The position numbers and the translations under genes are program-made. Of a DNA stretch of 64,000 bases, positions 1,325 to 30,910 are shown piece after piece (position 1 is the stretch's first letter; the number at the start of each line of letters is the position of its first letter). Under the pieces are notes generated by a model that made no database searches, was not told where the DNA came from, and saw only the letters and a program-made list of their open reading frames with translations. The DNA is from Acidobacteriota bacterium. Lineage in GTDB: Bacteria; Acidobacteriota; Terriglobia; Acidiferrales; UBA7541. Where the stretch lies: the NCBI GenBank assembly GCA_003223295.1, contig QHYM01000104.1:1-64000 (forward strand), read 5' to 3'.

Positions 1325-1752
1325 GCCCTTGCAAAAATGGCACTTATCCGGCCTCCGTCCGAGGATTGCGTCCTCCGGAGGTCACCCGTGGGACTCGGCC
1401 AGATCCTCGCCAAGTTAGTGGCGCAAAGTGTCGAATCCCCAGCTATTCTAGATTTGCTGCTTCTACATTTTCAATAGAAATAACGATGCAGCCCAAGCTG
1501 CATGTCGCAAAATGTCCATTCCGTGTCGCACTTTGGGGCTGGACTTCTTCCAAAGCAAGGGATATGGTCCGCCCCCATTGGCCGGGTGTATGCGCTTTCT
1601 GAATGGAGCGGATTTGAATTTGTCGAGAATCGAGTGCGCCAGGTGCATGACGCACTCAGGCGAAAAACTCCGTCACGCAAATTGGACTCAGGGATCCCGG
1701 CGCCAATTCTGCTCTCCGGAGGCGACTCGAAGACGGCTTGGGGAGGATGGAA
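1325..1752. other. Intergenic region between divergent regulator and Oar receptor
   Basis: No open frame here has a credible start or family resemblance. The stretch should hold the divergent promoters of the XylR-type regulator and the Oar-like receptor. I could not identify a convincing -35/-10 pair. The receptor has a good GGGAGG ribosome binding site at 1741-1746. Confidence 0.5.
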
Positions 1753-4425: not shown

Positions 4426-5453
4426 GCAACATCAACTACATTCCCGTGGGCGCCTTGTTTAAGCCTGATCCGGTGACGGGCATCACCTACTATTGCCAGG
4501 GCACGGCGAGTGCGACGTGTGTGGCAGGTGCTCCACCATCAGGTGCCATCCCGGATTTCAGGCCCTGGGGCTACAACCAGCTCTTCGTGGCCCGTCATGG
4601 CAGCTACTCGAATTACAACGGATTAATCGTGCAGTGGATGAAGCAGACCGGCAGAGCCGTATTCAACGTGAATTACGCTTGGAGTCACACGCTGGGAATC
4701 CGCGGCGGAGACAACGACAATGGACAAGGGTCCGGCGCTGCGCTCGACGCCTTCAATCTGGCGAATAACTACGGCACCTTGGCCTTTGACCGGCGGCATA
4801 TCTTTAACGCCGCCTATGTGATCAACCTGCCGAGCCCCGTACATAACAACCTCTTCGGCGAAGAGGTTGTCAATGGGTGGCAGCTTACCGGCACCGTGCA
4901 ATACCAAAGCGGCCCGCCACTTCAACCTTTGACCGGCATGGGCCTCAATCCAAACTTTGGGGGACTCAGCAACCAGCGCATCCTCGGCACCGACGGCATT
5001 GCTCTGGAGCCCTACCTAACGTGTAATCCGGCAAGTGGTCTGAAGGCCGGGCAGTACTTCAACCCTGCGTGTTTCGCGATGCCTGCAACCCGCGGCCAAA
5101 ATGGACCGCTCATCTGGCCAAACATCACTGGCCCGGCGTACTTTGGCAGCGATCTAGGCATGTACAAAGACTTCAAGGTCAAAGAGAGCCAGAAGATCGA
5201 ATTCCGGTTCACGGCGTTCAACTTTATGAATCACCCCAACTCCCAGTTCGGCCTGGGGAACGACATCAATTTGAGCTTTACGGCTCCGGGTGGCGGCAAC
5301 ACGAACCCGAACACCACTCTTCTAACCCGACCCAAACATGCAGTAACGGAAAAGGGGATGGCTCCACTCCATCCCCTTTTTCTTTGTCCGTATGACAGAA
5401 TAAGCTCCGCAAGAAAATCTCGGAGGCCGGTTGAAATCGCACGGACGCTTTGA
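4422..5453 (+). CDS. C-terminal barrel part of the disrupted Oar-like receptor
   Basis: This frame continues the receptor that stops at 4425 and overlaps it by ATGA. It carries late barrel strands such as INYIPVGALFKPDPVTG, FNVNYAWSHTLG, YGTLAFDRRHIFNAAYVINL and KIEFRFTAFNFMNHPNS. It has no signal peptide and cannot act alone as a receptor. The end is also abnormal. After FTAPGGGNTNPNTT the frame runs through a terminator hairpin into 5453 instead of ending in the usual short aromatic-terminated strand, so a second lesion probably removed the last strand. Two lesions in one gene make a sequencing error less likely than true decay. Confidence 0.75.
   Translation: MSNINYIPVGALFKPDPVTGITYYCQGTASATCVAGAPPSGAIPDFRPWGYNQLFVARHGSYSNYNGLIVQWMKQTGRAVFNVNYAWSHTLGIRGGDNDNGQGSGAALDAFNLANNYGTLAFDRRHIFNAAYVINLPSPVHNNLFGEEVVNGWQLTGTVQYQSGPPLQPLTGMGLNPNFGGLSNQRILGTDGIALEPYLTCNPASGLKAGQYFNPACFAMPATRGQNGPLIWPNITGPAYFGSDLGMYKDFKVKESQKIEFRFTAFNFMNHPNSQFGLGNDINLSFTAPGGGNTNPNTTLLTRPKHAVTEKGMAPLHPLFLCPYDRISSARKSRRPVEIARTL
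5351..5381 (+). terminator. Rho-independent terminator after the broken Oar gene
   Basis: An 11-bp perfect stem (AAAGGGGATGG, 5351-5361, with its complement at 5369-5379) has a 7-base loop and leads into a T-run. It lies within the abnormal tail of the receptor frame, which supports the idea that the original stop codon was lost just upstream. It sits about 50 bases before the start of the next gene. Confidence 0.75.
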
Positions 5454-16272: not shown

Positions 16273-16319
16273 CCTCTGGCGCCTTCTCTCTGCTATTGTT
16301 GGCTTTGAGACCTGTTTGC

Positions 16320-18032
16320 ATGCGCCCCAGAGAGAACACCAGAAAGATTTCGCCTCCCCGAATTTCCCTCACCGTGCGCTTCCATTCAAATCCGGCTGAT
16401 CGGAAGCGCGCCGCACGAAAGAACTCTTCGGCGAAAACGACCGCCGTCTTTCTTCTAGCCCTCTGCTCGCTGGCTCCCCGCTTCGCAACCTGCCAGACGC
16501 CCGAAGCACAAGTCGAAGCGTTGTTCACCGCCGGCCAGCAAGCCCTAAAGCAAGGTGACTTCGCTCGTGCCGCGGAACAATTCAAGAAGGTTCTGGCACT
16601 GGACCCAAACTTAATCGAAGCTGAGGTCAACCTGGGTCTTGCTTACCAAAGCCTCTTCAAGTACGACTTGGCGGTCCAGCACCTGACGAAGGGTCTGCGC
16701 GCAAGACCGAATCTGCTCGGCCCCACCGTCATTGTCGGGATGGATTACCTCAAGCTAGGTTCCCCGGAAAAGGCTGTTCCGTTCCTTCAGCGCGCACTCA
16801 AGCTCGATCCTTCCAACCGCGAGGCGCACCAGGCGCTAGCTTCGTGCTATCTCGGCCAGGGAAATTTCCGCAGCGCGGCGGCGGAGTTCCGGCAGATCGC
16901 CGAACTCGATTCCGACAAGGCCGAGGCATGGTTCAAACTCGGGCACGAATACCTGGATTTAGCTGCCCGTTTGGCCTACAGGGGAGCGCATCTGTATCGC
17001 GAATCGGCCTGGGGACATCGCTTTCTTGGTGATCTGTTATTTCAGCGCGACCGTTGGGAAGATGCAGTGAAGGAGTACCAAAAGGCGCTCACCGCCGACC
17101 CACGCCAGTCCGGCTTGCATACATCCCTGGGCCAAACGTACCTGCATGCGGGCAAATTGCAAGAAGCCGGAACCGAGTTTCACCTGGAACTTCAGCTCGA
17201 TTCGCAAAATGAGCTGGCATGGCTAGCCTTGGCGGGTATGCAGCTGGCCAAAAGCCAAGCTTCCGCAGCCCTGGAATCAATCGCAAAAGTTTGGGAAATC
17301 TCTCCTGAATTCTTGGCCGTGCAACGGCTCTTTCCGTCCACCGAACTTCCTCAGGGCTCGGCAATAGCTTCGATATCGCTCCTACAAGATGAACCTGAAA
17401 CAGCGGCCAAACATTTTCTGCTGGCGGCTCTTTATGCCAGCGCGAACGAAAATGCTCTCTCAGACGGTCAATGGAAAGCCTTCCAAGCTGACTTCTTAGC
17501 GTGGCAACAAGCCGCGAACGCTGCTGAACCAGCACACGCGCATCAGGACCCCTGCAAAGCCCGTCATTACTTCCGCTGCGCAGAGTTGCTGCAAGTCCGT
17601 AAGCAGCTGACCGATTCCGAGCGGCTGCTTCTAGGAGAAATGCATTTTACTTTGCAACAATACGAGACTGCGGCTAACGTGTTAGCCCAAGTTCAGGGCG
17701 TCACCAACGAAAATGCCGAAGCCAGCTATTGGTTGGAGCGCACTTACCAGGCCCTGGGGGCTGAGGCATATGCGCGGCTACAGGAATCTTCCCCCGATTC
17801 CTGGCGCAGCCACCAGCTGCGTGCCGAAGGTTACGCGCTTCGCCAGGATTTCGACAACGCGCTCAAAGAGTTTCAAGGCGCCCTGCAGTTGCATCCTGAT
17901 GAATCAGAGCTTCACGAAGCGGTCGGGGAGCTTTACCTCGTTAATCATTCTGACGCCGAGGCGCAGAGCGAGCTGGAGAAAGCTTTGGCGCTTGATCCTT
18001 CGGGTTGTTGGGGACCGCGTACGTGCGCCTAG
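16320..18032 (+). CDS. TPR-repeat protein, frameshifted near its 3' end
   Basis: This exported TPR protein has a long basic N-region and a hydrophobic signal segment (TTAVFLLALCSLAPRFATC), then many tetratricopeptide repeats such as GDFARAAEQFKKVLALDPN, FKYDLAVQHLTKGLRARP and GSPEKAVPFLQRALKLDPS. I use ATG 16320; a TTG at 16296 is in frame but has no better ribosome site. The frame stops after ALALDPSGCWGPRTCA, whereas the next TPR helix (LLGTAYVRLGRFANAV) continues in another frame from 18005. A one-base loss or small deletion next to the GGG at about 18000 explains this. It follows the Oar receptor, as in module A. Confidence 0.82.
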   Translation: MRPRENTRKISPPRISLTVRFHSNPADRKRAARKNSSAKTTAVFLLALCSLAPRFATCQTPEAQVEALFTAGQQALKQGDFARAAEQFKKVLALDPNLIEAEVNLGLAYQSLFKYDLAVQHLTKGLRARPNLLGPTVIVGMDYLKLGSPEKAVPFLQRALKLDPSNREAHQALASCYLGQGNFRSAAAEFRQIAELDSDKAEAWFKLGHEYLDLAARLAYRGAHLYRESAWGHRFLGDLLFQRDRWEDAVKEYQKALTADPRQSGLHTSLGQTYLHAGKLQEAGTEFHLELQLDSQNELAWLALAGMQLAKSQASAALESIAKVWEISPEFLAVQRLFPSTELPQGSAIASISLLQDEPETAAKHFLLAALYASANENALSDGQWKAFQADFLAWQQAANAAEPAHAHQDPCKARHYFRCAELLQVRKQLTDSERLLLGEMHFTLQQYETAANVLAQVQGVTNENAEASYWLERTYQALGAEAYARLQESSPDSWRSHQLRAEGYALRQDFDNALKEFQGALQLHPDESELHEAVGELYLVNHSDAEAQSELEKALALDPSGCWGPRTCA

Positions 18033-18250
18033 GGCGCTTTGCCAATGCGGTGCCGAAACTCGAGAAGGCTGCCCGTTTCGACCATTACGGCAATGTCCAT
18101 TATCAGTTGTACTTAGCTTACAGCAAGCTCGGCAAAACCGAACTCGCACGAAAGGCGTTGGCGCGCTCGCAAGATCTGCGTAAAAGCTCTCTTGAGCACG
18201 ACCAAGCGCTGGTCATTGGATCTCCGCAGCCGGAACCTGAACCGCAATGA
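18005..18250 (+). pseudogene. Out-of-frame C-terminal fragment of the TPR protein
   Basis: This 81-residue frame reads LLGTAYVRLGRFANAVPKLE, then YLAYSKLGKTELARKALARS, a TPR helix pair that naturally extends the protein ending at 18032. It has no ribosome binding site of its own. It ends with a Pro/Glu tail (SPQPEPEPQ). The overlap of 28 bases and the shift of frame point to a frameshift in one original gene of about 640 codons. Confidence 0.75.
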
Positions 18251-18343: not shown

Positions 18344-18662
18344 CTATGCAGGATTGCTCCTTTCGCACCTGGGGCGACCTGGTTCTGTGAGAATTGACTC
18401 CATCTCCAGAGCCTCAAGGCCCATTCCTGTTTTCGGCTTCGCCACACCTCGCACTACAGCAAGCATCTTAACGGTTTGGTCTTTGCGTTTCAGAGTAAGG
18501 CGAACCTTCGTGCCAATCTCTAGGAAGCCGCGAGTACAGGTCTAGAATCCCTGCGTGGGCCGCAAAAGGATACCGAATCGCATAACGCCGCTCACGCAAG
18601 CCAGAGTTCCTGAAGGGTTGGCGCTGTCCGATTCCATTAGAATTACACTTAGCATTTATCAA
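18344..18662 (-). pseudogene. Decayed PilZ-domain gene
   Basis: The first frame contains RERRYAIRYPFAAHAG, which matches the RxxxR start of PilZ domains that bind cyclic di-GMP. It then stops. A second frame from about 18530 to the stop at 18344 reads FLEIGTKVRLTLKRK, then KMLAVVRGVAKPKTGMGLEA, the second half of a PilZ barrel. The piece between, which should hold the DxSxxG motif, is shortened and frameshifted. The remnant lies about 50 bases downstream of the membrane-fusion gene on the same strand, so it was probably the last gene of the cyclic di-GMP operon. I am fairly sure of the domain and less sure of the exact start. Confidence 0.65.
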
Positions 18663-18712: not shown

Positions 18713-19813
18713 CTACTTAGCTCGATGGAAAATACTGGGGGTGTTCGATAGGAACTGGACCGTGACTCGAAGTCCAATGGGCAACGGTCGGGAATTATCG
18801 TCTAGATCGATCACTGCCTCCAGGATATCGCGGTCGCTTTTGTCGGAGGGGTCGCCTGTCGAGATACTCTTTCTCCCCATCATGTCGGACACCCTCGCGA
18901 CGGAGCCGGTGAGTTTTTTGCCATCAAGAGCATCGGCTTGGATTACCACTTTCTGCCCAACAGAGACTTTATCTACGTCTCTCTCGTCGATTTCCGCCTT
19001 AATGTGCCGCGTAGAAGTGTCCGCAAGACTAAAAAGTGGGCGGGGAATGACCGTACTGAAGGACTCGCCGCGTCTTGCGTACACTCTCAAAACGGTCCCG
19101 TCGATGGGGGCCGCGATGGAGCACTTGCCGATCCGTTCCTGTACAGTTTTGACACGACCCTCGGCCGCTGCTACATCAGCATCGGCACGCGCCGCGTCTT
19201 CTTGTAAAGGAGGTGCGGCAAGCAACTCCTCGGTTCGAGTGGCGGCCTTGAGGTTGGCATCGGCGACGTCGCGATCACGGACAGCCTGGTCATAAGCGGA
19301 CCTGGAGATCTGCTGCTTCTCGTAAAGAGCTCGCTGCATCTCCAAATGCGACTTGGCTTCTTCGTATGTCGCCCGGGCCGCCGCCGTTTTGTCGCTGGCA
19401 ATTTTCCTCTCTTCTTCACGCGCGCCACGCATAAGCCGGGCCTTTGCCTGGCGCGCAGCATCGGCTTCCGCAAGGGCGGTCTGTAAGCTCGCTTGTAGTT
19501 CATCACAAGCGATCTCACCCAGTAGCGTTCCTCTTTTTACGAATTGACCCTCTTTTACGTAAACAGCCTTCAAGACGCCGTCCGCGGCAGCTCCTACTTG
19601 TGTGGTCTCGGAGGCGCCCTCCACTCGTCCCGGGGAGGCAAAAATCACAGCCCCGGTGGAGTTGCCCAACAGTGCCCCGTGAGCCTCCACCGAATTCCTA
19701 TTTCGCGAAGTTCCCAGAAAAGCGACACCTGCAATAACCAGCAGGATCGCAAGGCCGCCGATGCCCCATCTACTGGATGCTCTGAATTCCTTCAATGACT
19801 CCAATGCTTTCAT
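18713..19813 (-). CDS. Membrane-fusion (HlyD/DevB-type) adaptor of an ABC exporter
   Basis: This 366-residue protein has one N-terminal membrane anchor (WGIGGLAILLVIAGVAFLG), a lipoyl-like half motif (DGVLKAVYVKEGQFVKRG), an Ala/Glu/Arg-rich coiled-coil hairpin at about residues 100-200 and a second lipoyl half with a beta-barrel domain (CSIAAPIDGTVLRVYARRGE). Such periplasmic adaptors link an inner-membrane ABC exporter to an outer-membrane channel. Its start overlaps the ATPase stop by ATGA (19810-19813), showing translational coupling. With the two genes upstream it forms a DevBCA/MacAB-like set. No TolC partner is present in the window. Confidence 0.88.
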   Translation of the reverse strand: MKALESLKEFRASSRWGIGGLAILLVIAGVAFLGTSRNRNSVEAHGALLGNSTGAVIFASPGRVEGASETTQVGAAADGVLKAVYVKEGQFVKRGTLLGEIACDELQASLQTALAEADAARQAKARLMRGAREEERKIASDKTAAARATYEEAKSHLEMQRALYEKQQISRSAYDQAVRDRDVADANLKAATRTEELLAAPPLQEDAARADADVAAAEGRVKTVQERIGKCSIAAPIDGTVLRVYARRGESFSTVIPRPLFSLADTSTRHIKAEIDERDVDKVSVGQKVVIQADALDGKKLTGSVARVSDMMGRKSISTGDPSDKSDRDILEAVIDLDDNSRPLPIGLRVTVQFLSNTPSIFHRAK

Positions 19814-20502
19814 AGAACGCTCACCTCTTCTTCGACCTTGCCATCGCAGAGAGTGACGGTGCGATCAGCGAATTTCTCCCATCGCCAATCGTGGCTGACC
19901 ACAACAACGGTTCTTCCGTGCTCGTCAACTTGCCTTCGAAGGATGTTACAGATATTTCTTCCGGCCTCGGCGTCCAGGGAAGCCGTCGGCTCATCTGCAA
20001 GAAGAATGGGAGGATTCCCGGCGAGGGCCCGTGCGATGGCAACTCGCTGTTTTTCGCCGGGGCTGAGATCGTCCGGCTCTTGATGAAGCTTGTCACCCAG
20101 GCCGAACTGAAGCAGCAAGTCTCGCGCCATTTCCTTTCTTCCAGAGGCGGCCGCATCGCGAATTTCGAAACCGAGCGCCACATTGTCCAACGCACTAAGC
20201 GAGTGAAAGAGGCGGAAAGCCTGGAACACAAAGCTGATCTTCTTTTGGCGAATGACGGTTCTTTCTGCCTCGCTGAGTCCGTTCACAGCGACACCATCTA
20301 CGAATACTGTTCCTTCATCGGGCGACAATAGACATCCAAGCATGGACAACAATGTAGTCTTGCCGCTGCCTGAGGGACCCATCAACAAGGAAAGCGTGCC
20401 TCTCTCGAACGTGAGAGAAACGTCGCGGAGAGCGCACACGCGAGCTTCCCCTTGTCCAAAGGACACGCTTGCGCCTTCGACTCCCAAAAAGGGATTAGGC
20501 AC
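19810..20502 (-). CDS. ABC transporter ATPase (DevA/MacB-NBD/LolD-like)
   Basis: This 230-residue ATPase has Walker A GPSGSGKTT, Q-loop FVFQAFRLF, signature LSPGEKQR (a Pro where most relatives have Gly), Walker B ILLADEP and H-loop VSHD. I choose GTG 20502, which has GGGAG about nine bases upstream and overlaps the permease stop by eight bases. An upstream in-frame start at 20550 would add 16 residues lacking family resemblance. It powers the FtsX-type permease encoded just before it. The overlaps on both sides show a coupled three-gene exporter. Confidence 0.9.
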   Translation of the reverse strand: MPNPFLGVEGASVSFGQGEARVCALRDVSLTFERGTLSLLMGPSGSGKTTLLSMLGCLLSPDEGTVFVDGVAVNGLSEAERTVIRQKKISFVFQAFRLFHSLSALDNVALGFEIRDAAASGRKEMARDLLLQFGLGDKLHQEPDDLSPGEKQRVAIARALAGNPPILLADEPTASLDAEAGRNICNILRRQVDEHGRTVVVVSHDWRWEKFADRTVTLCDGKVEEEVSVL

Positions 20503-21613
20503 GGAACACTCTCCCAGGCTCGACCGTGAGGGCGCTACGAACCGAAACAATCGATGCTAGTGAACACATGGCCAGGCTGGGAACGACCATAGCGCCGGGC
20601 AGCCACCAAGGTGCATGGATCCAAGGAATCAGAGATTTCGCGTAACTGATGCTTGGAATGACAGCCAGAAGGCCCAGCACGCTGCCGATTGCACCGCAAA
20701 TCAAAGCCTGGCTAAGAACGATGCGCGCCACGAAAGATTGCGAGGCTCCCAGGGCCTTTAATGTCGCGTATTCCTCGATGTTTTCCATCGTGTTCGCATA
20801 AATCGTTTGAGACACAACGACGAGACCTATCAGGAATCCCAATACGGCTGCCGTCAGAATCGCTCCTCCCGCTCCCGTTTTTATGGTCCAGTACATGCGG
20901 GACTTATGCGCAAACTCATCTTGAGTGAGCACATCCACTTCGGGGAGCCGCTGCTTTAGGCTTTGCTGGACCTGTGAGACGGGATATGCCTTGTCGATCC
21001 GCAAGAGAATGTACATTGCCTGGTCAGGGCCAGAGTCCATGTACCGGATGGCATTCCTGTACGAAGTGAATAGGAAAGGAACCCCCAGGAATGCTCCGTA
21101 GCCTTGTATCTCGCGTTCGATGCTGGCCCGGTGACGATTGATCTCTACTTCTGACGGGAGCGTGTTCACCTCAATCTGCTTGCGGTCGCTGACGTCATAG
21201 AGCACTGCATCAGGTGACATCTCCGCGGCGGACTCAAGCCGATTGGGAACCGGGAACCGCCTTCCGACACCAGGATCAGCCCCGACTAAAGCCACAACCT
21301 GCTGTTTTCCAATAGGCGTGCGGTAAACAGCAAAAGCCATGCAGACCCTGCTCGTATCCATCACGCCTGGCACACCGGCCGCCATCTCCCTCACACGGCT
21401 TTCCAATGCCGTTCCAAACTCAAAGGCCTGGACTCCCCTGGCGGTGATCCAAATGTCAGAGTCACTGGCATCGATCAACCTGGAGGCAGCCTGCAAGAAA
21501 CCAGACAGAAGGCTGCCTTGAAATACCATCAGAAATACTGCAAATGACACACCGAGAACGGTCACAGAAAAGCGGCCGCGATCGTGGAGGATGTTTTGTA
21601 ATGCGAGTTTCAT
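20495..21613 (-). CDS. ABC exporter permease (FtsX/DevC-type)
   Basis: This 372-residue inner-membrane permease has a first transmembrane segment (FSVTVLGVSFAVFLMVFQGS), a large periplasmic domain at about residues 40-250, and three C-terminal segments including ILTAAVLGFLIGLVVVSQTI and QALICGAIGSVLGLLAVI. This is the FtsX/MacB layout without a fused ATPase, as in DevC. It begins five bases after the stop of the GGDEF-EAL gene, so exporter and signalling genes look co-transcribed. The substrate is unknown; related DevBCA systems export glycolipids or peptides. Confidence 0.87.
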   Translation of the reverse strand: MKLALQNILHDRGRFSVTVLGVSFAVFLMVFQGSLLSGFLQAASRLIDASDSDIWITARGVQAFEFGTALESRVREMAAGVPGVMDTSRVCMAFAVYRTPIGKQQVVALVGADPGVGRRFPVPNRLESAAEMSPDAVLYDVSDRKQIEVNTLPSEVEINRHRASIEREIQGYGAFLGVPFLFTSYRNAIRYMDSGPDQAMYILLRIDKAYPVSQVQQSLKQRLPEVDVLTQDEFAHKSRMYWTIKTGAGGAILTAAVLGFLIGLVVVSQTIYANTMENIEEYATLKALGASQSFVARIVLSQALICGAIGSVLGLLAVIPSISYAKSLIPWIHAPWWLPGAMVVPSLAMCSLASIVSVRSALTVEPGRVFRA

Positions 21614-21618
21614 GGAAG

Positions 21619-23727
21619 CTATCTAGATTGCTCGCACATTTGCCAGGTCGGCTCTCCCTCCAACAACGCCGTGGAGTTTTCGGCCGACAGCGGTTTGGAG
21701 AAGTAGTATCCCTGCGCGTACTTGCAGTGCAGCTGTTTGAGCAAGGCTACCTGCTCAAGTGTTTCCACTCCCTCAGCCACTACATCCAGGCGAAGATTAT
21801 TCGCCATCGGCAAAATCGTCCGCGCGATCTCCATGCCTTCTCCCTCGTTCTGCATATCGCGGATGAAGGAGCGATCGATCTTTAACGTGTCGAGCGGAAA
21901 GCGGTGCAGGTAACTCAGCGAAGAGTAGCCGGTGCCAAAGTCGTCTATGGCCAGGCGAATGCCGATGGCCTTTATCTGTTGCAGCATTTCCACGGCCGCC
22001 GAGGGATCCGCCATAACGGCGCTTTCTGTGATCTCTAACTTCAGCGCACCCGGAGACAGCGACAGTTCATGCAGCAGCTTTCGAATGTCTACAACGAGGT
22101 TAGGCTGTAAGAATTGCTTGGCCGAGAGGTTTACGCTGATAATCAGGTCCTGACACCCATTTGAGCCAGTTCTCCAATCGCTCATCTGCCGGCAGGCTTC
22201 CCGCAGATTCCACCAGCCTAACTCGCGGATCAGGCCGGTTTCTTCCGCCACGAGAATGAATTCTTCCGGCCCAAGCAGTCCTCGAGTAGGATGCTGCCAC
22301 CGCAGCAGCGCCTCAAACCCGACAATCCGTCCGGAATCCAAAGACACGATCGGCTGATAGAAATTGCGAAATTCCTCGCGTTCCAGAGCGCCACGCAGGT
22401 CCGTCTCCAACTGCAAGCGCGCCATTACGCTGGCCCGCATGTCCGCGTCGAAAACTTCAAAGCGGGCCTTACCCAAAGATTTGGCCCGATACATAGCCGT
22501 GTCCGCGTCGCGAAGCATGTCCTCCGGCTCGTCGTAGGCCGAATTGCTCAAGGCGATTCCGATGCTTACCGACGTGAATACCTCTTTCCCACCCAAGATG
22601 AACGGAGGGGCTAATGCCTTCATCAATCGATCCGCAGCGCTCTTGGCATCATTGGGATCCTTAAGATCGTCGAGGAGCACAGTGAACTCATCCCCGCCGA
22701 GGCGCGCCACAGTGAACGATTCTCCCAGACGGGCCACGGTGTCCGTGGAACGCAAGCATTTTTCCAGGCGATTAGCCACTCCGAGCAAGAGCTGGTCGCC
22801 GATCAGATGGCCCATGCTGTCGTTGATCATTTTGAAGCCGTCAAGATCCAGAAACAGAATCGCGAACAAGGCGTCCTTACGCCTCTTTGCGTGTTTGATG
22901 AGCCGCCCAAGCCGGTCTATGAAAAGCAGCCGGTTGGGCAGCCCAGTCAGAGGATCGGATACCTTTCGCTCGGTGATGTCGGTCTGCGAGCCTGCCATTC
23001 GCAGGGTTTTTCCCGAATCGCCGAATACCGCGAGCCCCCTATTCAACATCCACCGAAATGTTCCGTCTTTGTGGAGCATCCGATGCTCGCTCTCGAAGTG
23101 AGGCGTCGAGCCATTGCGATGGGCGGTTATCTCTTCTTTCACCCTTTTTCGATCGGCGTCATGAATCCGGTTGAACCATTCTTCCGGACCGTTGCCGATT
23201 TCATTTTCGTGCCAGCCCAGCATGGCTTTCCATCGCGGCGAGTAATACACGTGTCCCGTCTGAATATTCCAATCCCAAAGACCATCATTGGCCCCGCGCG
23301 CCGCCAAAGCGTACCGTTCTTCACTCTCTCTCAGTGCTTCCTGCGCTCGCTTGTGCGACAACTGAGTTCCGATGCGGGCAAGCGCCACCGGAAGGTCCAC
23401 TGGTTTCGTCAGATAATCGTTTGCTCCCAGATTCAGGGCCTTGACGACGTCTTCGCTTTGACTCTTCGCCGTCACCATAATGATCGGGAGATCAACGGGC
23501 GAATGGCTTTCGCGCAGAGTTTTCAGCGCATCAAGGCCGCTGATCTCCGGCATCTCGATATCGAGAAGTACCAGGTCCACGGTGTTTTGTTTGACGCGTT
23601 GCATGAGCTGCTCTGCACTTTCCACGACGTCAACCAGATAGCCACTGCGCGCCAGCCGGCGGGCAAGCATATCCCGGTTCATTTCGTTGTCATCCACAAT
23701 TAGCAAACGGCTTTGCAGTGAGCTCAT
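21619..23727 (-). CDS. REC-PAS-GGDEF-EAL cyclic di-GMP signalling protein
   Basis: This 702-residue cytoplasmic protein has a receiver domain at residues 1-125 with phospho-acceptor Asp56 in LLDIEMP and the lysine in MVTAKS. It then has a PAS domain at about 145-255, GGDEF at about 260-430 with intact ARLGGDEFTVLL, and EAL at about 440-690 with GFEALLRWQHP, DDFGTGYSSLSYL and KIDRSFI. Both synthesis and breakdown sites for cyclic di-GMP look complete, so the net activity cannot be told. Just before GGDEF a nine-residue near-duplication (TVARLGESF, then TVARLGGDEF) is inserted. The start overlaps the upstream receiver gene by ATGA. Confidence 0.93.
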   Translation of the reverse strand: MSSLQSRLLIVDDNEMNRDMLARRLARSGYLVDVVESAEQLMQRVKQNTVDLVLLDIEMPEISGLDALKTLRESHSPVDLPIIMVTAKSQSEDVVKALNLGANDYLTKPVDLPVALARIGTQLSHKRAQEALRESEERYALAARGANDGLWDWNIQTGHVYYSPRWKAMLGWHENEIGNGPEEWFNRIHDADRKRVKEEITAHRNGSTPHFESEHRMLHKDGTFRWMLNRGLAVFGDSGKTLRMAGSQTDITERKVSDPLTGLPNRLLFIDRLGRLIKHAKRRKDALFAILFLDLDGFKMINDSMGHLIGDQLLLGVANRLEKCLRSTDTVARLGESFTVARLGGDEFTVLLDDLKDPNDAKSAADRLMKALAPPFILGGKEVFTSVSIGIALSNSAYDEPEDMLRDADTAMYRAKSLGKARFEVFDADMRASVMARLQLETDLRGALEREEFRNFYQPIVSLDSGRIVGFEALLRWQHPTRGLLGPEEFILVAEETGLIRELGWWNLREACRQMSDWRTGSNGCQDLIISVNLSAKQFLQPNLVVDIRKLLHELSLSPGALKLEITESAVMADPSAAVEMLQQIKAIGIRLAIDDFGTGYSSLSYLHRFPLDTLKIDRSFIRDMQNEGEGMEIARTILPMANNLRLDVVAEGVETLEQVALLKQLHCKYAQGYYFSKPLSAENSTALLEGEPTWQMCEQSR

Positions 23728-24101
23728 GACGATTGCCTCACAACGAGCAAGTTCTCGATTTTGTCGCTCAGGCGCACAAATTCGACTGGCTTGGTATCGT
23801 AATCATCGCATCCGGCTTCGAATGCCTTTTCGCGGTCACTGACCAAGGCGTGCGCCGTCAGAACGATGATTGGAATATGGCAGGTGGATCCAGTGGCCTT
23901 CAGGAGGCGGGTTACTTCCCAACCATCCATAACCGGGAGGCTTAGATCCATTAGAATGAGATCTGGTCTTTCGGAGCGGGCCATCAAATATCCTTGCCTG
24001 CCGTCTTGCGCCAACACTACTCGATAACCTTTTTTCTCCAAGCGTCTGGATAGCATGTCCCGGTTCATTTCGTTGTCTTCCACGAGCAAGATTTTTGGCA
24101 T
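23724..24101 (-). CDS. Stand-alone response-regulator receiver protein
   Basis: This 125-residue single receiver domain has the acidic pair ED at 8-9, phospho-acceptor Asp52 in LILMDLSLPVMDGWE, Thr in VLTAHA and the lysine in DTKPVE. It has no output domain. I start at ATG 24101, preceded by GAGG; an upstream in-frame start at 24257 would run into the histidine kinase gene. Placed between the hybrid kinase and the GGDEF-EAL protein, it probably relays phosphate between them, which is inference from order and coupling. Confidence 0.9.
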   Translation of the reverse strand: MPKILLVEDNEMNRDMLSRRLEKKGYRVVLAQDGRQGYLMARSERPDLILMDLSLPVMDGWEVTRLLKATGSTCHIPIIVLTAHALVSDREKAFEAGCDDYDTKPVEFVRLSDKIENLLVVRQSS

Positions 24102-24105
24102 GAAG

Positions 24106-26160
24106 TTAGTGCCTCCTCGGTCCAACGGCCTCGGGTTTTCGTGAGTTTTTCTGGCCTTTAGAGGGCCAGTTGGCTGGGAGCGCACTGGCTTTTTCGAGTG
24201 TAGAAAGGCGGACAGCACGGTGTTTTTCAATGAGAGTGACAAGCCGTTCGCGGTCAACCGGCTTAATTAGATAACTAGAGGCGCCCAAATCCCGCCCCAT
24301 AGCCTCGTTGTCGACGATGGTTACCATGATGACCGGAATTTCCGCCAAGTCAGAATCGGCTTTGAGTTTGTTGAGAACCGTCCAGCCATCCCAATCCGGC
24401 ATGATGACGTCCAGCGTAATCACCAACGGGTGAATTTGTTTTGCAAGCCGCAGACCTTCTTCTCCGCTCGAAGCAGCGACTACCCGGAACCCAAGCTTTG
24501 TCAGGGATCGCGACATAAGGTCGCGAACCGCCAAATCGTCATCAATCACCAGGATCGTGTCCGAATCCGGCTTGACCTCCGACGACGCGCCGGCATTGAC
24601 TGTTTCAGGTGATTGCGTGTTTTCGGGATGCTCGCCCGCTGCCTGAACCGGCAGGTGCACCGTAAACACGGACCCCTGACCGGGCGCGCTCTCCACCATG
24701 ATGCGTCCCTTCATCAACTGAACAAATCGGTGGCTGATCGCGAGCCCTAGCCCAGTCCCACCATATTTTCGTGCAATCGAAATATCGGCTTGAGTGAACT
24801 CGTGAAACAGGTTTTCCTGTTGCTCGGCAGTTATTCCGATGCCTGTGTCGCCGACTCGGAACTGAATCCAGTCTTGACCCGCGTTTGGGACGCGGTTCAC
24901 ATCCAGCAAGATCGTGCCGTGATCGGTGAATTTGCAGGCGTTACTCAGCAGGTTCAGCAGGATTTGGCGAACTTTTGTGACGTCAGCCCGCATCACGCCG
25001 ATGTTCTGCGGCATACGAAGCTGGAATTCATTTGCGTTCTTCGCTATCGCTGGTTTGAGGGTCATAACGATTTCCTCAATCATGTCTGCGATGCCGAAGG
25101 CTTCGATGTTGAGCTGCATCTTGCCGGCTTCAATTTTGGACAGGTCGAGGACGTCATTGATTAGAGCTAAGAGGTGTTTGCCGGCCGCCTGAATTTTTTG
25201 GAGATCCCGGACATTCGAAATCTTGCCCAAATCTTGCACTTCTTCTTCCAACATTTCGCTGTATCCGATAATTGCGTTGAGCGGCGTGCGCAGTTCGTGG
25301 CTCATATTCGCGAGGAACGCGCTCTTGGCGCGGCTAGCCTGCTCCGCAGCTTGCTTTGCAGTGAGCAGTTCTTCTTGAGTGCGCTTGCGATGGACAATCT
25401 CCACTTCCAACTCATGCGTGCTTGTCTGAAGTTCATTGTTGGCGCGCTGCAACGCCGAGTCACGCAGTTGGATTTCGGATAGCATGGTGTTGAAACCGTC
25501 GATGAGCCTTCCAATTTCGTCGCCGTAAAAGCGCGTAGCTCGAATTTCGTAGTTCTTGTTGGAGGACACCATTCTCATGGTGTCCTCCAAATGCAGAATG
25601 GGCTTGGAGATCAGTTTCTGCAGCTTGGAGGAGAGCAGCAACGCCAGAGAACCGCAAATCAACACAACCACAATAATGATGCCCGTGTATCGTTTGGCGC
25701 GGGTATTCCACTGGCGCATGTCCGAAAGCAGGAACAAAGTTCCCACACGCTCGCCGTTCATCGTCACTTGCTCGAAGACCTGAAGATAGCCGTCCTCAAA
25801 GCGGTAGCCGTTTTGTTGCGAGCGGGAAGGAAGTGAGGGTGGCAGGCTCTTATTCGCGCGGAAATAGTGCGCAAATACTTTTCCTTCCGGACTGTATAGC
25901 GAGGCTGCCACGATGTCTTCCTTGGCCTTAAGGGCTGACAGGGTTGCGGTTGCGGCAGACTCATCTTTGAACGCCATCGCGGCGCCACTGTTGAATCCGA
26001 TAATCTCCGCCTGGGTCATGAGGTCCTGGCTGAGCTGGCGGCGAAAGGACATCAGGTCGTAGATGAGGAAGCTGACCGAGGAGAGGACCAAGGCCAAGCT
26101 GCTGGTCAGCATGGTGATCAGCATCAGTTTCCGCTTGATGGATAGGTTCTGAAGGTTCAT
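24106..26160 (-). CDS. Hybrid histidine kinase with CHASE8-like periplasmic sensor
   Basis: This 684-residue membrane kinase has transmembrane segments at about 12-32 and 155-175 that flank a periplasmic region resembling CHASE8 (SFRRQLSQDLMTQAEIIGFN). HAMP follows at about 178-230, a coiled linker, HisKA with NMSHELRTPLNAIIGY (phospho-His in SHELR), an ATPase domain with N-box NLLSNACKF and G-boxes DTGIGI and GGTGLGL, and a C-terminal receiver with VITLDVIMPDWDG. CHASE8-HAMP is also the input part of YfiN, the known partner of YfiR. Here YfiR is encoded directly upstream and overlaps by four bases, so YfiR probably regulates this kinase in the periplasm. Confidence 0.92.
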   Translation of the reverse strand: MNLQNLSIKRKLMLITMLTSSLALVLSSVSFLIYDLMSFRRQLSQDLMTQAEIIGFNSGAAMAFKDESAATATLSALKAKEDIVAASLYSPEGKVFAHYFRANKSLPPSLPSRSQQNGYRFEDGYLQVFEQVTMNGERVGTLFLLSDMRQWNTRAKRYTGIIIVVVLICGSLALLLSSKLQKLISKPILHLEDTMRMVSSNKNYEIRATRFYGDEIGRLIDGFNTMLSEIQLRDSALQRANNELQTSTHELEVEIVHRKRTQEELLTAKQAAEQASRAKSAFLANMSHELRTPLNAIIGYSEMLEEEVQDLGKISNVRDLQKIQAAGKHLLALINDVLDLSKIEAGKMQLNIEAFGIADMIEEIVMTLKPAIAKNANEFQLRMPQNIGVMRADVTKVRQILLNLLSNACKFTDHGTILLDVNRVPNAGQDWIQFRVGDTGIGITAEQQENLFHEFTQADISIARKYGGTGLGLAISHRFVQLMKGRIMVESAPGQGSVFTVHLPVQAAGEHPENTQSPETVNAGASSEVKPDSDTILVIDDDLAVRDLMSRSLTKLGFRVVAASSGEEGLRLAKQIHPLVITLDVIMPDWDGWTVLNKLKADSDLAEIPVIMVTIVDNEAMGRDLGASSYLIKPVDRERLVTLIEKHRAVRLSTLEKASALPANWPSKGQKNSRKPEAVGPRRH

Positions 26161-26747
26161 TCAGACTTCCTTCCATCGGCGGATTGCGGGACGATCCTCG
26201 CAAGCGCTAGCAACCGGGAACTGATATTCAAATTCGCTTGTTTCGCGGCTTCGATGTTGACCTCGAAGCGAACCTTGTTGTCCTGCAATGTGAGATTGAT
26301 GATGCCGCCACGTGTAGCGAACCCAGGTGTTTCTCCAATAGTCAGAATGGGCAACCACTTCACCATGTTGAACAGGTCGGGGATATGTTCTTTTTCGGAC
26401 GAGCTAACGAACAGGATGTTGCAGTCTTTGAGATCCTTAAGATCCTTGCCCCATTTCAGGCGTTTAACCACCAGATTGCGTCCGTCAAGTTTCTTATTTT
26501 CGACAACCCGATCGATGGTCGTTCCGAAGGGATCGGTTCCCAAGATGCCGATTACGATTGGAGAGTCCGCCTGGGAAAAAACCACCGAGGGCCATTGCAC
26601 CAACTGGGCAAAGTTGTAGATAAAGCCTGCCTTGATCAAGTACTCGGAGGACGCCGCCGAATCCGAAGATTGTGCGTTGGCCCCCAAGGCCAGGCTCAAA
26701 CAGAGCAGAACCGCGACTGTTAGCCGCGATCGTCTCATGAGCGCCAT
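26157..26747 (-). CDS. YfiR-family periplasmic protein (DUF4154)
   Basis: This protein has about 196 residues, with a signal peptide (MRRSRLTVAVLLCLSLALGA) and the YfiR core, including YLIKAGFIYNFAQLVQWP, ILGTDPFG, CNILFVSSSE and LTIGETPGFATRGGIINLTL. In Pseudomonas, YfiR restrains the diguanylate cyclase YfiN through its CHASE8 domain. Here the adjacent coupled gene is a CHASE8-like kinase. The start is uncertain: ATG 26747 or 26738 best fits the signal peptide, while 26783 is also open. Conserved cysteines of some YfiR proteins are not obvious, apart from one in DCNILFV. Confidence 0.85.
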   Translation of the reverse strand: MALMRRSRLTVAVLLCLSLALGANAQSSDSAASSEYLIKAGFIYNFAQLVQWPSVVFSQADSPIVIGILGTDPFGTTIDRVVENKKLDGRNLVVKRLKWGKDLKDLKDCNILFVSSSEKEHIPDLFNMVKWLPILTIGETPGFATRGGIINLTLQDNKVRFEVNIEAAKQANLNISSRLLALARIVPQSADGRKSE

Positions 26748-26795
26748 TCCCGAATGGAAGTAATCGTCATTCCCCATGACCACCAGACGAGCAAC

Positions 26796-28859
26796 TTAGA
26801 ATTTCCAAGCAATGCGTCCGCTAACGGTCCGCCGAACTTCTGTAGGTGTTGTGTTGATGAATTCCGGAATAAATTCCAGATGCCGGCTGTTCAGCAAATC
26901 CTGGCCAGCCAATGAGAGTTCTAGGTGCGTGCCCGGCCGCCATCCAAGATGGAAATCCAAAGAGTAGTAGCTGGGAATGTTGAGACTCGGCAGTTTGTCC
27001 ACGTATCGAAGGCTGAGGTCCTGCTCGAAATGCTTGGGCAGATCGATGGAAGACTGCACGAAGAATTGATGCCTGGGACTCTGGCCATCGGGATTATCGC
27101 CTGTCGGGTCCTGGCTATCCTTGTTTTTACGAATGTTCATTTGCAGGTAGCTGTAAGAACCTAGAAGCTTCCATTTCGGAAGAACCTTCCATTCCACGAA
27201 CGGTTCTATGCCGTAGGTTCCGCCACCCATTTTGTTGCTGGCGACAAAGGGCTGCACGATATCCGTTGGAGCCGGGCTCCCTTCGACAAAGGGCGCGCCA
27301 GGTTCCGCGGAACGCAGGTGGGTGTAGAAGTTGTAAAACGCAGCAATGTCCAACGAAAGAGACTTGGTTGCTTGGACGCGATACCCGGCTTCATACGCAA
27401 GAAGGTCTTCTGATTTGAACTGTGGGCTCCCGAAGATCGCTGCTACCACGGGGAAAGGAGTGGGATTGGGAGGATTGAGGTTCCCCGGTGGAATGACAGC
27501 TTCGTTCAGACGGAGGCCCTCCTCGGTCAAAGCCGGCGTTCGGACGGCGCGAGAGACTGCCGCCCATACTGACTGATCCTTGCTGATGTTCCCAAGGAAC
27601 CTGATATTCGGTTGCACTTCGAAGCCGGTGAAGTCGTTGTGCTCAAATTTGGCTCCGATAGTTACGTTTAACCGGCGGTTAAAAAGGCTAATTTCATCCT
27701 GCAGGAACGAGCTAAATTGATTTAGGTTGCTGTGGTTTGGCTGAAGAGAGACGGTGAAGCTGGATCCATTCGAATCCTGGATGGATCGGTACCCCAACCC
27801 CCAAACCAGTTCCTGTGATTCTCCAACGTGGATGTCGTGTTGAAAATCTATGTCGTATACATTTTCATGGTCTGTGAACAACGAATTGTCGACAACGTTC
27901 GTATTGTCGAAATACACCTGCAACGATGTGGAAGAGCGCGAAAAGGAATGATTCCAGCGGCCAAGCAGGTTTCCACCCTTATAATCTCCGTCATTCGGAA
28001 ACGTGCTTGAATACGGCGGATTTAAGGAAGGTATAGTCAGGGTCTCGTTATAATTACTTTGATAGAGATCTCCTTGCACCGTGAGTGAATTCGGCCCCGT
28101 GGGGTGAATATCCATTCGGAACCCGCCGCGAACCGCGTCCCATCCATCGTTAGCGCGCTTCGCGGTTGCATCGTAGGAGGGCTGCCAATCGAAATATTTT
28201 GTGTAGATCCGGTAGTAAGAGGAATTGCCGATTTTTCCGCCATAGCGAGCGCCTTCAGCCGTTCTCTCCTCTGTTCCAACCTCTGCAGTCAAGATCCCGG
28301 ACTGCGTTGCCTTCGCCGGCTTGGTAATAATATTGATGACTCCGTCCACGGCGTTTGCGCCCCACAGCGTGGCGCCTGGACCGCGGATCACTTCAATTCG
28401 ATCCACGTCTTCCAGCATGACGTCCTGGACGTTCCAATACACTCCCGAAAACAGCGGCGTGTAAACGCTTCTGCCGTCGATGAGCACCAGCAGCTTGTTG
28501 TCGAAGCGGCCGTTAAATCCCCGTGAACCAATGGCCCATTTGTTCTGATCGATCCGTGCCACTTCCAGTCCGGGGACCATTCGCAAAGCCTCGGGAATGC
28601 TTGCCGCACCCGAGCGGCGAATGTCCTCTTGGGTGAGGACGAAGACGGCCGCTGCTGCGTCCGCAACTCTTTGCGTTCTCTTCGAGACCGACGTTACCTC
28701 CAGACTCATCAAGTCCTCGATGCTCATTCTGGAGATGTCTGGTACGCCTTGATTTTGGGCGGACGCACTGGCGCCAAGGAAAAGCGCGAGGACAATCAGC
28801 GATAAGATCCGTCCCCCGGCGGTTGGGGAGCCGTTGTTTTGGTTGCGAATCGGCAACAT
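26796..28859 (-). CDS. TonB-dependent receptor (cobalamin/siderophore class)
   Basis: This 687-residue outer-membrane receptor has a signal peptide ending near ASASAQ. The plug domain at about residues 45-165 contains GAASIPEALRMVPGLEVARI, SRGFNGRFDNKLLVLIDGRS and VIRGPGATLWGANAVDGVIN. A barrel follows, ending in the Phe-terminated strand TVSGRIAWKF. It is unlike the Oar class: shorter and with no carboxypeptidase-like domain. TonB receptor, YfiR and CHASE8 kinase often occur together, and this gene heads the minus-strand run here with a 48-base gap to YfiR. The ligand is unknown. Confidence 0.92.
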   Translation of the reverse strand: MLPIRNQNNGSPTAGGRILSLIVLALFLGASASAQNQGVPDISRMSIEDLMSLEVTSVSKRTQRVADAAAAVFVLTQEDIRRSGAASIPEALRMVPGLEVARIDQNKWAIGSRGFNGRFDNKLLVLIDGRSVYTPLFSGVYWNVQDVMLEDVDRIEVIRGPGATLWGANAVDGVINIITKPAKATQSGILTAEVGTEERTAEGARYGGKIGNSSYYRIYTKYFDWQPSYDATAKRANDGWDAVRGGFRMDIHPTGPNSLTVQGDLYQSNYNETLTIPSLNPPYSSTFPNDGDYKGGNLLGRWNHSFSRSSTSLQVYFDNTNVVDNSLFTDHENVYDIDFQHDIHVGESQELVWGLGYRSIQDSNGSSFTVSLQPNHSNLNQFSSFLQDEISLFNRRLNVTIGAKFEHNDFTGFEVQPNIRFLGNISKDQSVWAAVSRAVRTPALTEEGLRLNEAVIPPGNLNPPNPTPFPVVAAIFGSPQFKSEDLLAYEAGYRVQATKSLSLDIAAFYNFYTHLRSAEPGAPFVEGSPAPTDIVQPFVASNKMGGGTYGIEPFVEWKVLPKWKLLGSYSYLQMNIRKNKDSQDPTGDNPDGQSPRHQFFVQSSIDLPKHFEQDLSLRYVDKLPSLNIPSYYSLDFHLGWRPGTHLELSLAGQDLLNSRHLEFIPEFINTTPTEVRRTVSGRIAWKF

Positions 28860-28970: not shown

Positions 28971-29789
28971 CTATTTGCCTGTCTCATATCCCTTTTCCCC
29001 CGTTACGGTGAACTGCATGGAGTACGTGAGCGTGTCCGGTCTGCAGAGGTACTCAAGGAACCTTTGTATCTGCCGCTCGGCCTCCGCTTTGCTGCCAAGG
29101 GCCTTGGCCATCTGCGACTTTGCAATGTCCAGCTTTAGTTCCCATTGCCTGAGAATGTGCGGCTCAATCTCTCCGGCGATGAGGTGGTAGCATTCGACCT
29201 GGACGTCCACTTTCTTCAAGCCCGCCCCCCGGGCTAGCGAGAAGAGCTTTCGGCCAACGAAGGGGTCAAAGCCGGTCGCCGCTAGCGCGCCGACCACCCT
29301 TTCAACAGCGCGTTGCATTACCGGGTCCTCCGGGTAGTGCCACAAAAGCTGGCCGTCCAAATCCTGAAGTAAAACAATCCCTCCGGGCTTGCACACGCGC
29401 ACCATTTCTGCCACAGCCTTTTCTTTTTCCCGAAGGTACTGAAGCAACATGCGCGAATACACCACGTCAAAGTGATCCGAAGGAAGCTGCATTGCTTGTG
29501 CGTCACCGCGAAAGAATTGCAAGCGAGGATTCTTAGGGTTTCTCTCGGTAGCTTCCTGCACGCGGTCTGCGCTAATGTCGATGCCGGTTGCCTTGATTGA
29601 CGAATCCAGTGCGGAAACAGCGTTCAAAATCACGCCAGGGCCGCAGCCCACGGAAAGGACTTCCGCACCTGGAGGGACTCGATGGGCGAGGTACTTCTGA
29701 ACCCACGCCTCTGGATCGACTTTCGCTTCCAGACGCGCGGCTTCCCGCGGGTCCTCCATGATGTAATCGATTGTGGCGGCTTTGTTCAT
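28971..29789 (-). CDS. SAM-dependent class I methyltransferase
   Basis: This 272-residue cytoplasmic enzyme has motif I VLSVGCGPG, the acidic ribose-binding residue in ATGIDIS, GDAQAMQLPSDHFDVVYSRM and motif LREKEKAVAEMVRVCKPGGI, as in UbiE/Methyltransf_11 proteins. The substrate is unknown. It starts eight bases after the stop of the GNAT-like gene and probably shares its transcript. It is 111 bases upstream of the TonB receptor on the same strand, so it may also feed that operon. Confidence 0.88.
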   Translation of the reverse strand: MNKAATIDYIMEDPREAARLEAKVDPEAWVQKYLAHRVPPGAEVLSVGCGPGVILNAVSALDSSIKATGIDISADRVQEATERNPKNPRLQFFRGDAQAMQLPSDHFDVVYSRMLLQYLREKEKAVAEMVRVCKPGGIVLLQDLDGQLLWHYPEDPVMQRAVERVVGALAATGFDPFVGRKLFSLARGAGLKKVDVQVECYHLIAGEIEPHILRQWELKLDIAKSQMAKALGSKAEAERQIQRFLEYLCRPDTLTYSMQFTVTGEKGYETGK

Positions 29790-29797
29790 TGGTATCC

Positions 29798-30910
29798 CTA
29801 AGAGACGAGCGAAGCCTCCATGTCATGCCTCTCGAACCTTGTCAGCAGCTTGGAATAGAAACCGTCAATGTGGCGATAGAAGCGAAGATTTCCATCACGC
29901 AGCCAGATGCCCTGGCAGTAGTCGCGCAGGTACTCGGCGCCAAAGCGAACGAGAGCCGGCGAAGCGATTGCGTCGGCAATGACCGGGATCGCATCAAGTT
30001 CAAAGTCCTGGTATGCCGCGGAGGACGCTTTGAGCAGAGCGGCAACCACATCAGGCACATCAGAATCAGCAGCCTCGGGACGAAGGAGCAAATCGCAGCG
30101 ATTTTCCAGATAGCTGAAATTCGCCCCCAACGGGCCGCGATAGGCAATGGCTGCGCCGATTGGTTCGTTTTTGTGTGCGCGGTATGCTAGCCAGACTTGC
30201 CGTGTCCGCCGGAGGCCCACGCTACGATAGAGCTCATCGACAGCCTTTAGCTCTACGTCGACTGCCAGTTCCTCTGCAGTCAGGTAAATAGATCCTCGGC
30301 TCGCCCGAGCGACCTCGCAAAGAGCTTGCTTGTGGGTGGAATCGTAAGGCACGACGTGAATTCCGCGAGCCGCAGGCAGCGATAGTCTGCGCGACAGCGC
30401 AAAGTACATGTGTTGCTGAACCGAAGAAAGCGATGTACCAATAGTGTGAACCATGGATCCGAAGACGCGCGAGGGGAACCGGTTCTCGGGGCGAAACCAG
30501 TTCTGATAAGACTCATCCACTCCCCTCAGAATGCTCGCGGCCGTTCCCGCCAGCATCACCGCGCGCGAGCCGAGTGGATTGTTCTCAGAAACCAGGTGTT
30601 GCGACATCCAACCGTGATGGGTCGTTCGCCAGACTGCAATCGATGCACGTCCGCTTTGTTCATCGCCGGCACTGACCACATAAAGCAGAGACTCTCCGCC
30701 TCGGAGCATCCTGCGCCAGTTTTCTCTCACTTGTCCGAGATGCGGAGTAAGGCGCGCAGCCTTCCCCGGATAGAGGAAGCCGGTCCTCTCATACAGAGCA
30801 AAGAGCTGATTGATCGAAAGGGCGTTCACCTCGACTCCGTATGAGGTATGAACCTCAGAGAGCCGCGGCAAGCTCTTCAGTGTTTTTTGATCGAGCGCAT
30901 CTAAAGGCAT
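29798..30910 (-). CDS. Uncharacterised protein, possibly GNAT-like acyltransferase
   Basis: I do not recognise this 370-residue protein with confidence. It has no signal peptide or membrane segment. The pattern of beta strands ending in LYVVSAGDEQSGRASIAVWR and VWLAYRAHKNEPIGAAIAYR resembles the acetyl-CoA-binding strands of two tandem GNAT domains. The C-terminus ends in LRDGNLRFYRHIDGFYSKLL. It is coupled to a methyltransferase. A double-GNAT acyltransferase is a guess from strand patterns. Confidence 0.6.
   Translation of the reverse strand: MPLDALDQKTLKSLPRLSEVHTSYGVEVNALSINQLFALYERTGFLYPGKAARLTPHLGQVRENWRRMLRGGESLLYVVSAGDEQSGRASIAVWRTTHHGWMSQHLVSENNPLGSRAVMLAGTAASILRGVDESYQNWFRPENRFPSRVFGSMVHTIGTSLSSVQQHMYFALSRRLSLPAARGIHVVPYDSTHKQALCEVARASRGSIYLTAEELAVDVELKAVDELYRSVGLRRTRQVWLAYRAHKNEPIGAAIAYRGPLGANFSYLENRCDLLLRPEAADSDVPDVVAALLKASSAAYQDFELDAIPVIADAIASPALVRFGAEYLRDYCQGIWLRDGNLRFYRHIDGFYSKLLTRFERHDMEASLVS

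Follow-up and report, generated by a model that had tools for sequence, protein, structure and literature searches.

For the operon that runs along the minus strand of the window (the whole stretch of DNA that was analyzed, 64,000 nucleotides of contig QHYM01000104.1 from a soil bacterium of the Acidobacteriota), the sequence just behind the last gene raises the question of whether a cyclic di-GMP receptor of the PilZ type once stood there and, if so, which of the neighboring proteins it served. An initial annotation of positions 18344-18662 proposed that two minus-strand frames in this interval hold pieces of a decayed PilZ domain, a lost cyclic di-GMP effector for the neighboring exporter. 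The interval encloses a pseudogene (Table 1) that, with a probability of roughly 85%, is the relic of a small single-domain PilZ protein, here termed PilZ-A, whose ancestor would have lain beside the operon next to a second PilZ gene, PilZ-B, and would have read the cyclic di-GMP of the operon. The decay of the gene and its linkage to the operon are well supported; its putative role as an effector for the exporter is conjectural.

Table 1. The PilZ-A remnant, its parts and the genes of the adjoining operon, in window positions
Feature	Position	Strand	Basis or remark
PilZ-A pseudogene	18395..18637	-	likely ATG to last codon with recognizable homology; family profile and DNA alignment
N-terminal part kept, RERRYAIRYPFAAHAGILDL, with RxxxR (RYAIR)	18537..18596	-	
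62-nt deletion junction	18537..18538	-	blastn offset to G025 and DNA alignment
C-terminal part kept, CTRGFLEIGTKV...GMGLEALEMES	18395..18538	-	family profile and DNA alignment
HlyD-type adaptor	18713..19813	-	PF16576, E 2.8e-17
ABC ATPase	19810..20550	-	DevA-like below cut-off
FtsX-type permease	20495..21613	-	DevC-like below cut-off
REC-PAS-GGDEF-EAL protein	21619..23727	-	frame open
Single-domain response regulator	23724..24257	-	
CHASE8-HAMP hybrid histidine kinase	24106..26160	-	
YfiR-like periplasmic protein	26157..26783	-	NCBIfam NF053591, 153.1 bits, above the cut-off of 125
TonB-dependent receptor (Plug domain)	26796..28859	-	
Methyltransferase-like protein, operon head	28971..29789	-	all matches below cut-off; adjoins the operon in relatives too
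370-aa protein, first gene of the conserved block	29798..30910	-	

The recognition of the remnant as PilZ depends on the profile that is used. Neither fragment was matched by the Pfam PilZ model (PF07238) at E<=10, nor were the joined fragments at E<=1; intact relatives pass this model, for instance those of the genomes designated G031 (E 1.6e-9) and G029 (E 4.3e-13). Because Pfam remained blank for the fragments and for the joined remnant, a family-specific profile based on 29 intact homologues of the genus was used, the targets being the 1764 segments between stops, 20 amino acids or longer, in the six frames of the window. The two fragments obtained E values of 1.2e-15 (54 bits) and 6.5e-8 (29 bits) and were the only significant segments, the next one having an E value of 0.3, and when the window was simulated 20 times with a first-order Markov model, the top score of each run was between 4.0 and 8.8 bits. 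The PilZ pieces seen in the initial annotation are thus borne out by this profile and by the DNA alignment described below, and a check with PilZ profiles came out positive with the family-specific model only. No Rfam family was matched across the window at gathering scores. The decay is not complete, since the family profile still recognizes the two fragments, and a short functional product could in principle still be made from the locus, either a truncated PilZ or one arising by frame-shifted translation. Such a product is hardly credible, since the remnant has two frame changes and has lost one ligand motif and the tail, and since the lesions found in its relatives differ and leave no common arrangement.

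The lesions were located by alignment of the remnant DNA with four relatives (G025, G012, G031 and G011). The likely ATG at 18637 opens a sequence, MESDSA, that is alignable with the start METDSA of the G031 PilZ-A; this ATG and the RxxxR part lie in different frames, with one nucleotide lost between them, a change that the initial annotation did not mention. RERRYAIRYPFAAHAGILDL sits in the frame 18468-18662 and CTRGFLEIGTKVRLTLKRKDQTVKMLAVVRGVAKPKTGMGLEALEMES in the frame 18344-18541, both on the minus strand, and the shortened, shifted middle noted between the two proved to be a deletion of 62 nt at 18537/18538, its two sides overlapping by 2 nt, that takes out the [D/N]xSxxG motif and shifts the frame. 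After the deletion, the homology picks up as CTRGFLEIGTKVRLTLKRKDQTVKMLAVVRGVAKPKTGMGLEALEMES (18538-18395) and ends near 18395, the family's final ~20 residues being neither recognizable nor alignable. According to an excerpt of PMC10333796, cyclic di-GMP binding by PilZ follows from the motifs RxxxR and [D/N]xSxxG. The first of these is present in the remnant (RYAIR, at about 18576-18590), the second is absent through deletion, and a continuous reading frame is missing on account of the two frame changes and the 62-nt deletion. Having lost its frame, its tail and half of the ligand site, the remnant in the window cannot bind cyclic di-GMP or relay its signal.

An assembly or sequencing error in a gene that is actually intact might also produce such a picture, given that the genome is a draft of 481 contigs and that the neighboring TPR gene likewise has a frame change. 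This explanation is very improbable, however, as it would have to cover three separate changes, one of them of 62 nt, together with a missing tail, and as base-calling errors do not typically remove 62 nt and leave an overlap of 2 nt where the two sides meet. The TPR gene itself (16296-18250, plus strand) is convergent with the remnant and shifts its frame near the 3' end, its repeats continuing from 16296-18032 into the frame of 17996-18250. An outer-membrane beta-barrel gene of the window (1738-5453, plus strand) is also in two frames, 1738-4425 and 4422-5453, which correspond to consecutive stretches of a single Pfam profile (3-539 and 576-812 of its 838 positions).

The operon is transcribed on the same strand as the remnant, from the 370-aa protein through the methyltransferase-like protein, the TonB-dependent receptor, the YfiR-like protein, the CHASE8 hybrid kinase, the response regulator and the REC-PAS-GGDEF-EAL protein to the FtsX-type permease, the ABC ATPase and the adaptor, and the ATG of the remnant lies 75 nt past the stop of the adaptor gene. 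The remaining operon genes in the window have open frames. The 370-aa protein, for which no Pfam or NCBIfam match was found at E<=0.01, is kept at the operon head in relatives (67-86% identical). Orthologues of the adaptor at E<=1e-80 were identified in 13 of the 36 genomes of the genus, the genome of the window counted, and G011 has an additional partial orthologue at a contig edge. The adaptor gene is split over two frames in G018 (L081:8873-9959), and in G030 a gap separates two pieces of it (L082:1649-2627), so that further operon genes may be decaying or the drafts may carry errors. Within the GGDEF domain of the REC-PAS-GGDEF-EAL protein, the stretch from the usual RxxD position to GGDEF contains a short repeat, TVARLGESF, ahead of TVARLGGDEF; the repeat or a variant of it was present in all eight orthologues and paralogues inspected.

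The flank behind the adaptor was read over 0.27-6 kb in 16 relatives, 13 of them in one reading (up to 1.7 kb downstream of the adaptor, with 0.27 kb for G017 and 1.2 kb for G031; tblastn, E<=0.05) and three more, at the loci L105, L110 and L111, in a second reading that covered 15 named loci over 0.27 to 6 kb at E<=0.01. Most records of the named relatives are gp2-labelled metagenome genomes of acidobacteria, with Candidatus Acidiferrum typicum also among them, and all genomes compared are draft metagenome assemblies or drafts. An intact gene at the syntenic place, which the initial annotation had suggested seeking in related genomes, was not found for PilZ-A behind the adaptor in any of the 16 relatives. 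A PilZ-A at this place is present in G025, with 75-76% DNA identity to the remnant in two blocks, and is itself broken, about 7 nt being missing at the start and 2 nt being extra further on. What does stand intact at this place is PilZ-B, which follows the broken PilZ-A in G025 and is the only PilZ gene behind the adaptor in G018. In addition, G030 carries an opposite-strand PilZ at a distance of about 0.9 kb, and G011 gives a weak opposite-strand match (E 0.041); no PilZ was found behind the adaptor in the other 12 relatives over the 0.27-6 kb read. As 15 of the 16 relatives are without PilZ-A behind the adaptor, its position is not conserved over the genus.

At the other end of the operon, a PilZ-A/PilZ-B pair divergent from the 370-aa gene was identified in G012 and G031, whose operons span two contigs each and are presumed to be joined. 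The PilZ-A frame of G012 is disrupted by a 13-bp tandem duplication, and that of G031 is open and without RxxxR at the usual place. The pair thus lies at opposite operon ends in different genomes (L089:8825-9704 and L090:4945-5862 versus L072:6532-7485); with regard to a whole-operon inversion as a possible source of this swap, a blastn comparison of the outer flanks gave only one match, between G018 and G025, beyond the 370-aa gene. G033 and G028 carry another PilZ gene ahead of the 370-aa gene on the same strand, that of G033 matching Pfam PilZ with an E value of 4.8e-10. Taken together, seven of the eight genomes with both operon ends at least partly read carry a PilZ gene or remnant no farther than about 1.6 kb from an end (the window's own genome, G000, and G012, G031, G025, G018, G033 and G028, with G017 as the negative case and relatives read at one end only excluded), and since these genomes are related, the seven cases are not independent.

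It could be argued that the remnant is unrelated to the operon and lies behind it by chance, as this genome is rich in PilZ genes (39 matches in 6.03 Mb), members of the PilZ-A family occur elsewhere in 35 of the 36 genomes of the genus, and most relatives are without PilZ-A behind the adaptor gene. Such a coincidence is unlikely when seven in eight operons with a PilZ at an end are set against an expected density of about one match per 155 kb; it would also leave aside the REC-PilZ proteins, in which two genes of the operon appear to be fused, and the side-by-side arrangement of a response regulator, a GGDEF-EAL gene and a PilZ-A homologue in G029, both of which are taken up below.

Common descent of the remnant and the operon-linked copies is indicated by the tree, by the DNA alignment and by the shared place in G025. 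In a tree of 32 rows, the remnant groups with G025, G012, G031 and the REC-PilZ proteins, with support values of 91/81 (all seven rows), 95/87 (G025, whose row is on a long branch, left out) and 99/93 (eleven rows, with four further stand-alone homologues). The stand-alone PilZ-A relatives are single-domain proteins of 118 to 129 aa, and the nearest intact relative of the remnant in its own genome (C472) is 48-49% identical. Among the 45 PilZ-A matches listed at E<=1.2e-22, a threshold that the window copy does not reach, 43 keep a single frame along an alignment of roughly 100 residues or more, and the two exceptions are the copies beside the operon in G012 and G025. With the window copy added to these 45, all three broken copies are among the four operon-linked ones of 46, corresponding to a hypergeometric value of 2.6e-4, which was not used as a significance test because the copies are related by descent.

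The ligand motifs are well preserved outside this group. [D/N]xSxxG was present in 29 of the 29 intact PilZ-A homologues and RxxxR at the usual place in 26, and, judged by sequence, intact members of the family probably bind cyclic di-GMP. The three intact homologues without RxxxR (G031, G011 and G024) are of the remnant's own clade. Of the seven members of this clade in the tree, three are thus disrupted, each by a lesion of its own (the window, G025 and G012), the three intact ones just named are open without the usual-place RxxxR, and only the REC-PilZ of G018 keeps the frame and both motifs. PilZ-B has a narrower distribution, its orthologues (79-82% identical to the G025 protein, with the next best match at 52%) being found only in G025, G012, G031 and G018 and each time beside the operon; the genome of the window had no PilZ-B match above 49%. 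The first motif of PilZ-B reads RRSPR or RRTPR by eye, and the second has E in place of D/N.

Proteins that combine a receiver with PilZ-A are encoded by G011, G024 and G018 (268, 268 and 325 aa from stop to stop), on contigs other than that of the operon where the operon is present. Both halves of these proteins (L086:226-1029, L087:2578-3381, L088:9092-10066 (minus strand)) are closest to the operon's clade, and their receivers are 78-82% identical to those of the GGDEF-EAL proteins of five clade operons, versus 70-76% for the other matches listed at E<=1e-35. From these similarities we infer a fusion of the receiver of the operon's GGDEF-EAL protein with PilZ-A, which a loss of the intervening genes would yield if PilZ-A lay downstream on the same strand. 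The remnant itself might derive not from a stand-alone PilZ but from a REC-PilZ fusion gene whose receiver half is gone; the best matches of its C-terminal fragment outside its own genome are indeed the REC-PilZ proteins of G011 and G024 (69-71%), and the tree nests the REC-PilZ rows beside it. Such an origin is nonetheless quite improbable, because the start of the remnant is alignable with that of the stand-alone G031 protein, a receiver would not fit into the 75 nt behind the adaptor gene, and the same place in G025 shows the stand-alone layout.

For a stand-alone PilZ-A, the likely partner can be sought in these fusions and in G029, where a stand-alone PilZ-A homologue comes about 220 bp after a paralogous pair of response regulator and GGDEF-EAL genes; other PilZ-A homologues are located away from the exporter operon. 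The fusions and the G029 layout favor the GGDEF-EAL protein over the exporter as the putative partner of PilZ-A. The earlier proposal of a lost cyclic di-GMP effector for the exporter hence survives in its first half, a decayed PilZ gene being tied to the operon by the G025 site, the copies at the other end in G012 and G031, the tree and the REC-PilZ fusions, and its second half stays conjectural, the GGDEF-EAL protein being the more likely partner.

Most likely, the ancestral PilZ-A stood beside the operon with PilZ-B adjoining; its product very probably bound cyclic di-GMP via RxxxR and [D/N]xSxxG and would have read the second messenger controlled by the REC-PAS-GGDEF-EAL protein of the operon. 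The lineage of the window would then have lost the frame near the start, 62 nt with one ligand motif, and the recognizable tail. As the other operon genes are open, the operon may now work without a PilZ-A receptor, with another PilZ protein of the genome, or otherwise. By itself, the remnant is an ordinary pseudogene; the noteworthy part is the repeated damage to the same receptor in relatives, a likely receptor gene being lost while the adjoining cyclic di-GMP turnover gene stays open. The relatives provide a comparison series: PilZ-A is open and altered in G031, is broken, each time differently, in the window, G012 and G025, has no copy at the operon of G018, and is joined to a receiver in G011, G024 and G018. 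With this range of states, one can test if a local PilZ readout can be dispensed with or is replaced by the receiver fusion. One may speculate, with considerable doubt, that the operon of this clade repeatedly sheds its canonical cyclic di-GMP receptor, with PilZ-A being partly rewired to receiver output and PilZ-B staying as an adaptor. Such rewiring, if true, would turn a second-messenger readout into a phosphorylation readout via a receiver from the operon's own GGDEF-EAL protein. A literature search judged on titles found none that reports this case.

Compared with stand-alone PilZ proteins (PF07238), the remnant shares RxxxR and the C-terminal half, and differs in having no continuous frame, no [D/N]xSxxG, no recognizable tail and no Pfam match. 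The exporter genes resemble the DevBCA-type ABC exporters, as adaptor, ATPase and FtsX-type permease are likewise grouped and the Dev models of NCBIfam rank first for the ATPase and the permease and second for the adaptor; however, all three genes miss the curated cut-offs (102/129, 209/295.8 and 99.4/290.35 bits). By analogy, and as a lead only, the operon may also be compared with the system of FimX, which the same excerpt of PMC10333796 presents as a REC-PAS-(d)GGDEF-EAL protein with a PilZ partner. Unlike that system, this operon is without visible type IV pilus genes, and its GGDEF and EAL motifs look canonical by eye. The operon likewise pairs a REC-PAS-GGDEF-EAL protein with adjoining PilZ genes, and PilZ-B, without D/N in its second motif, would be akin to non-canonical adaptor PilZ proteins.
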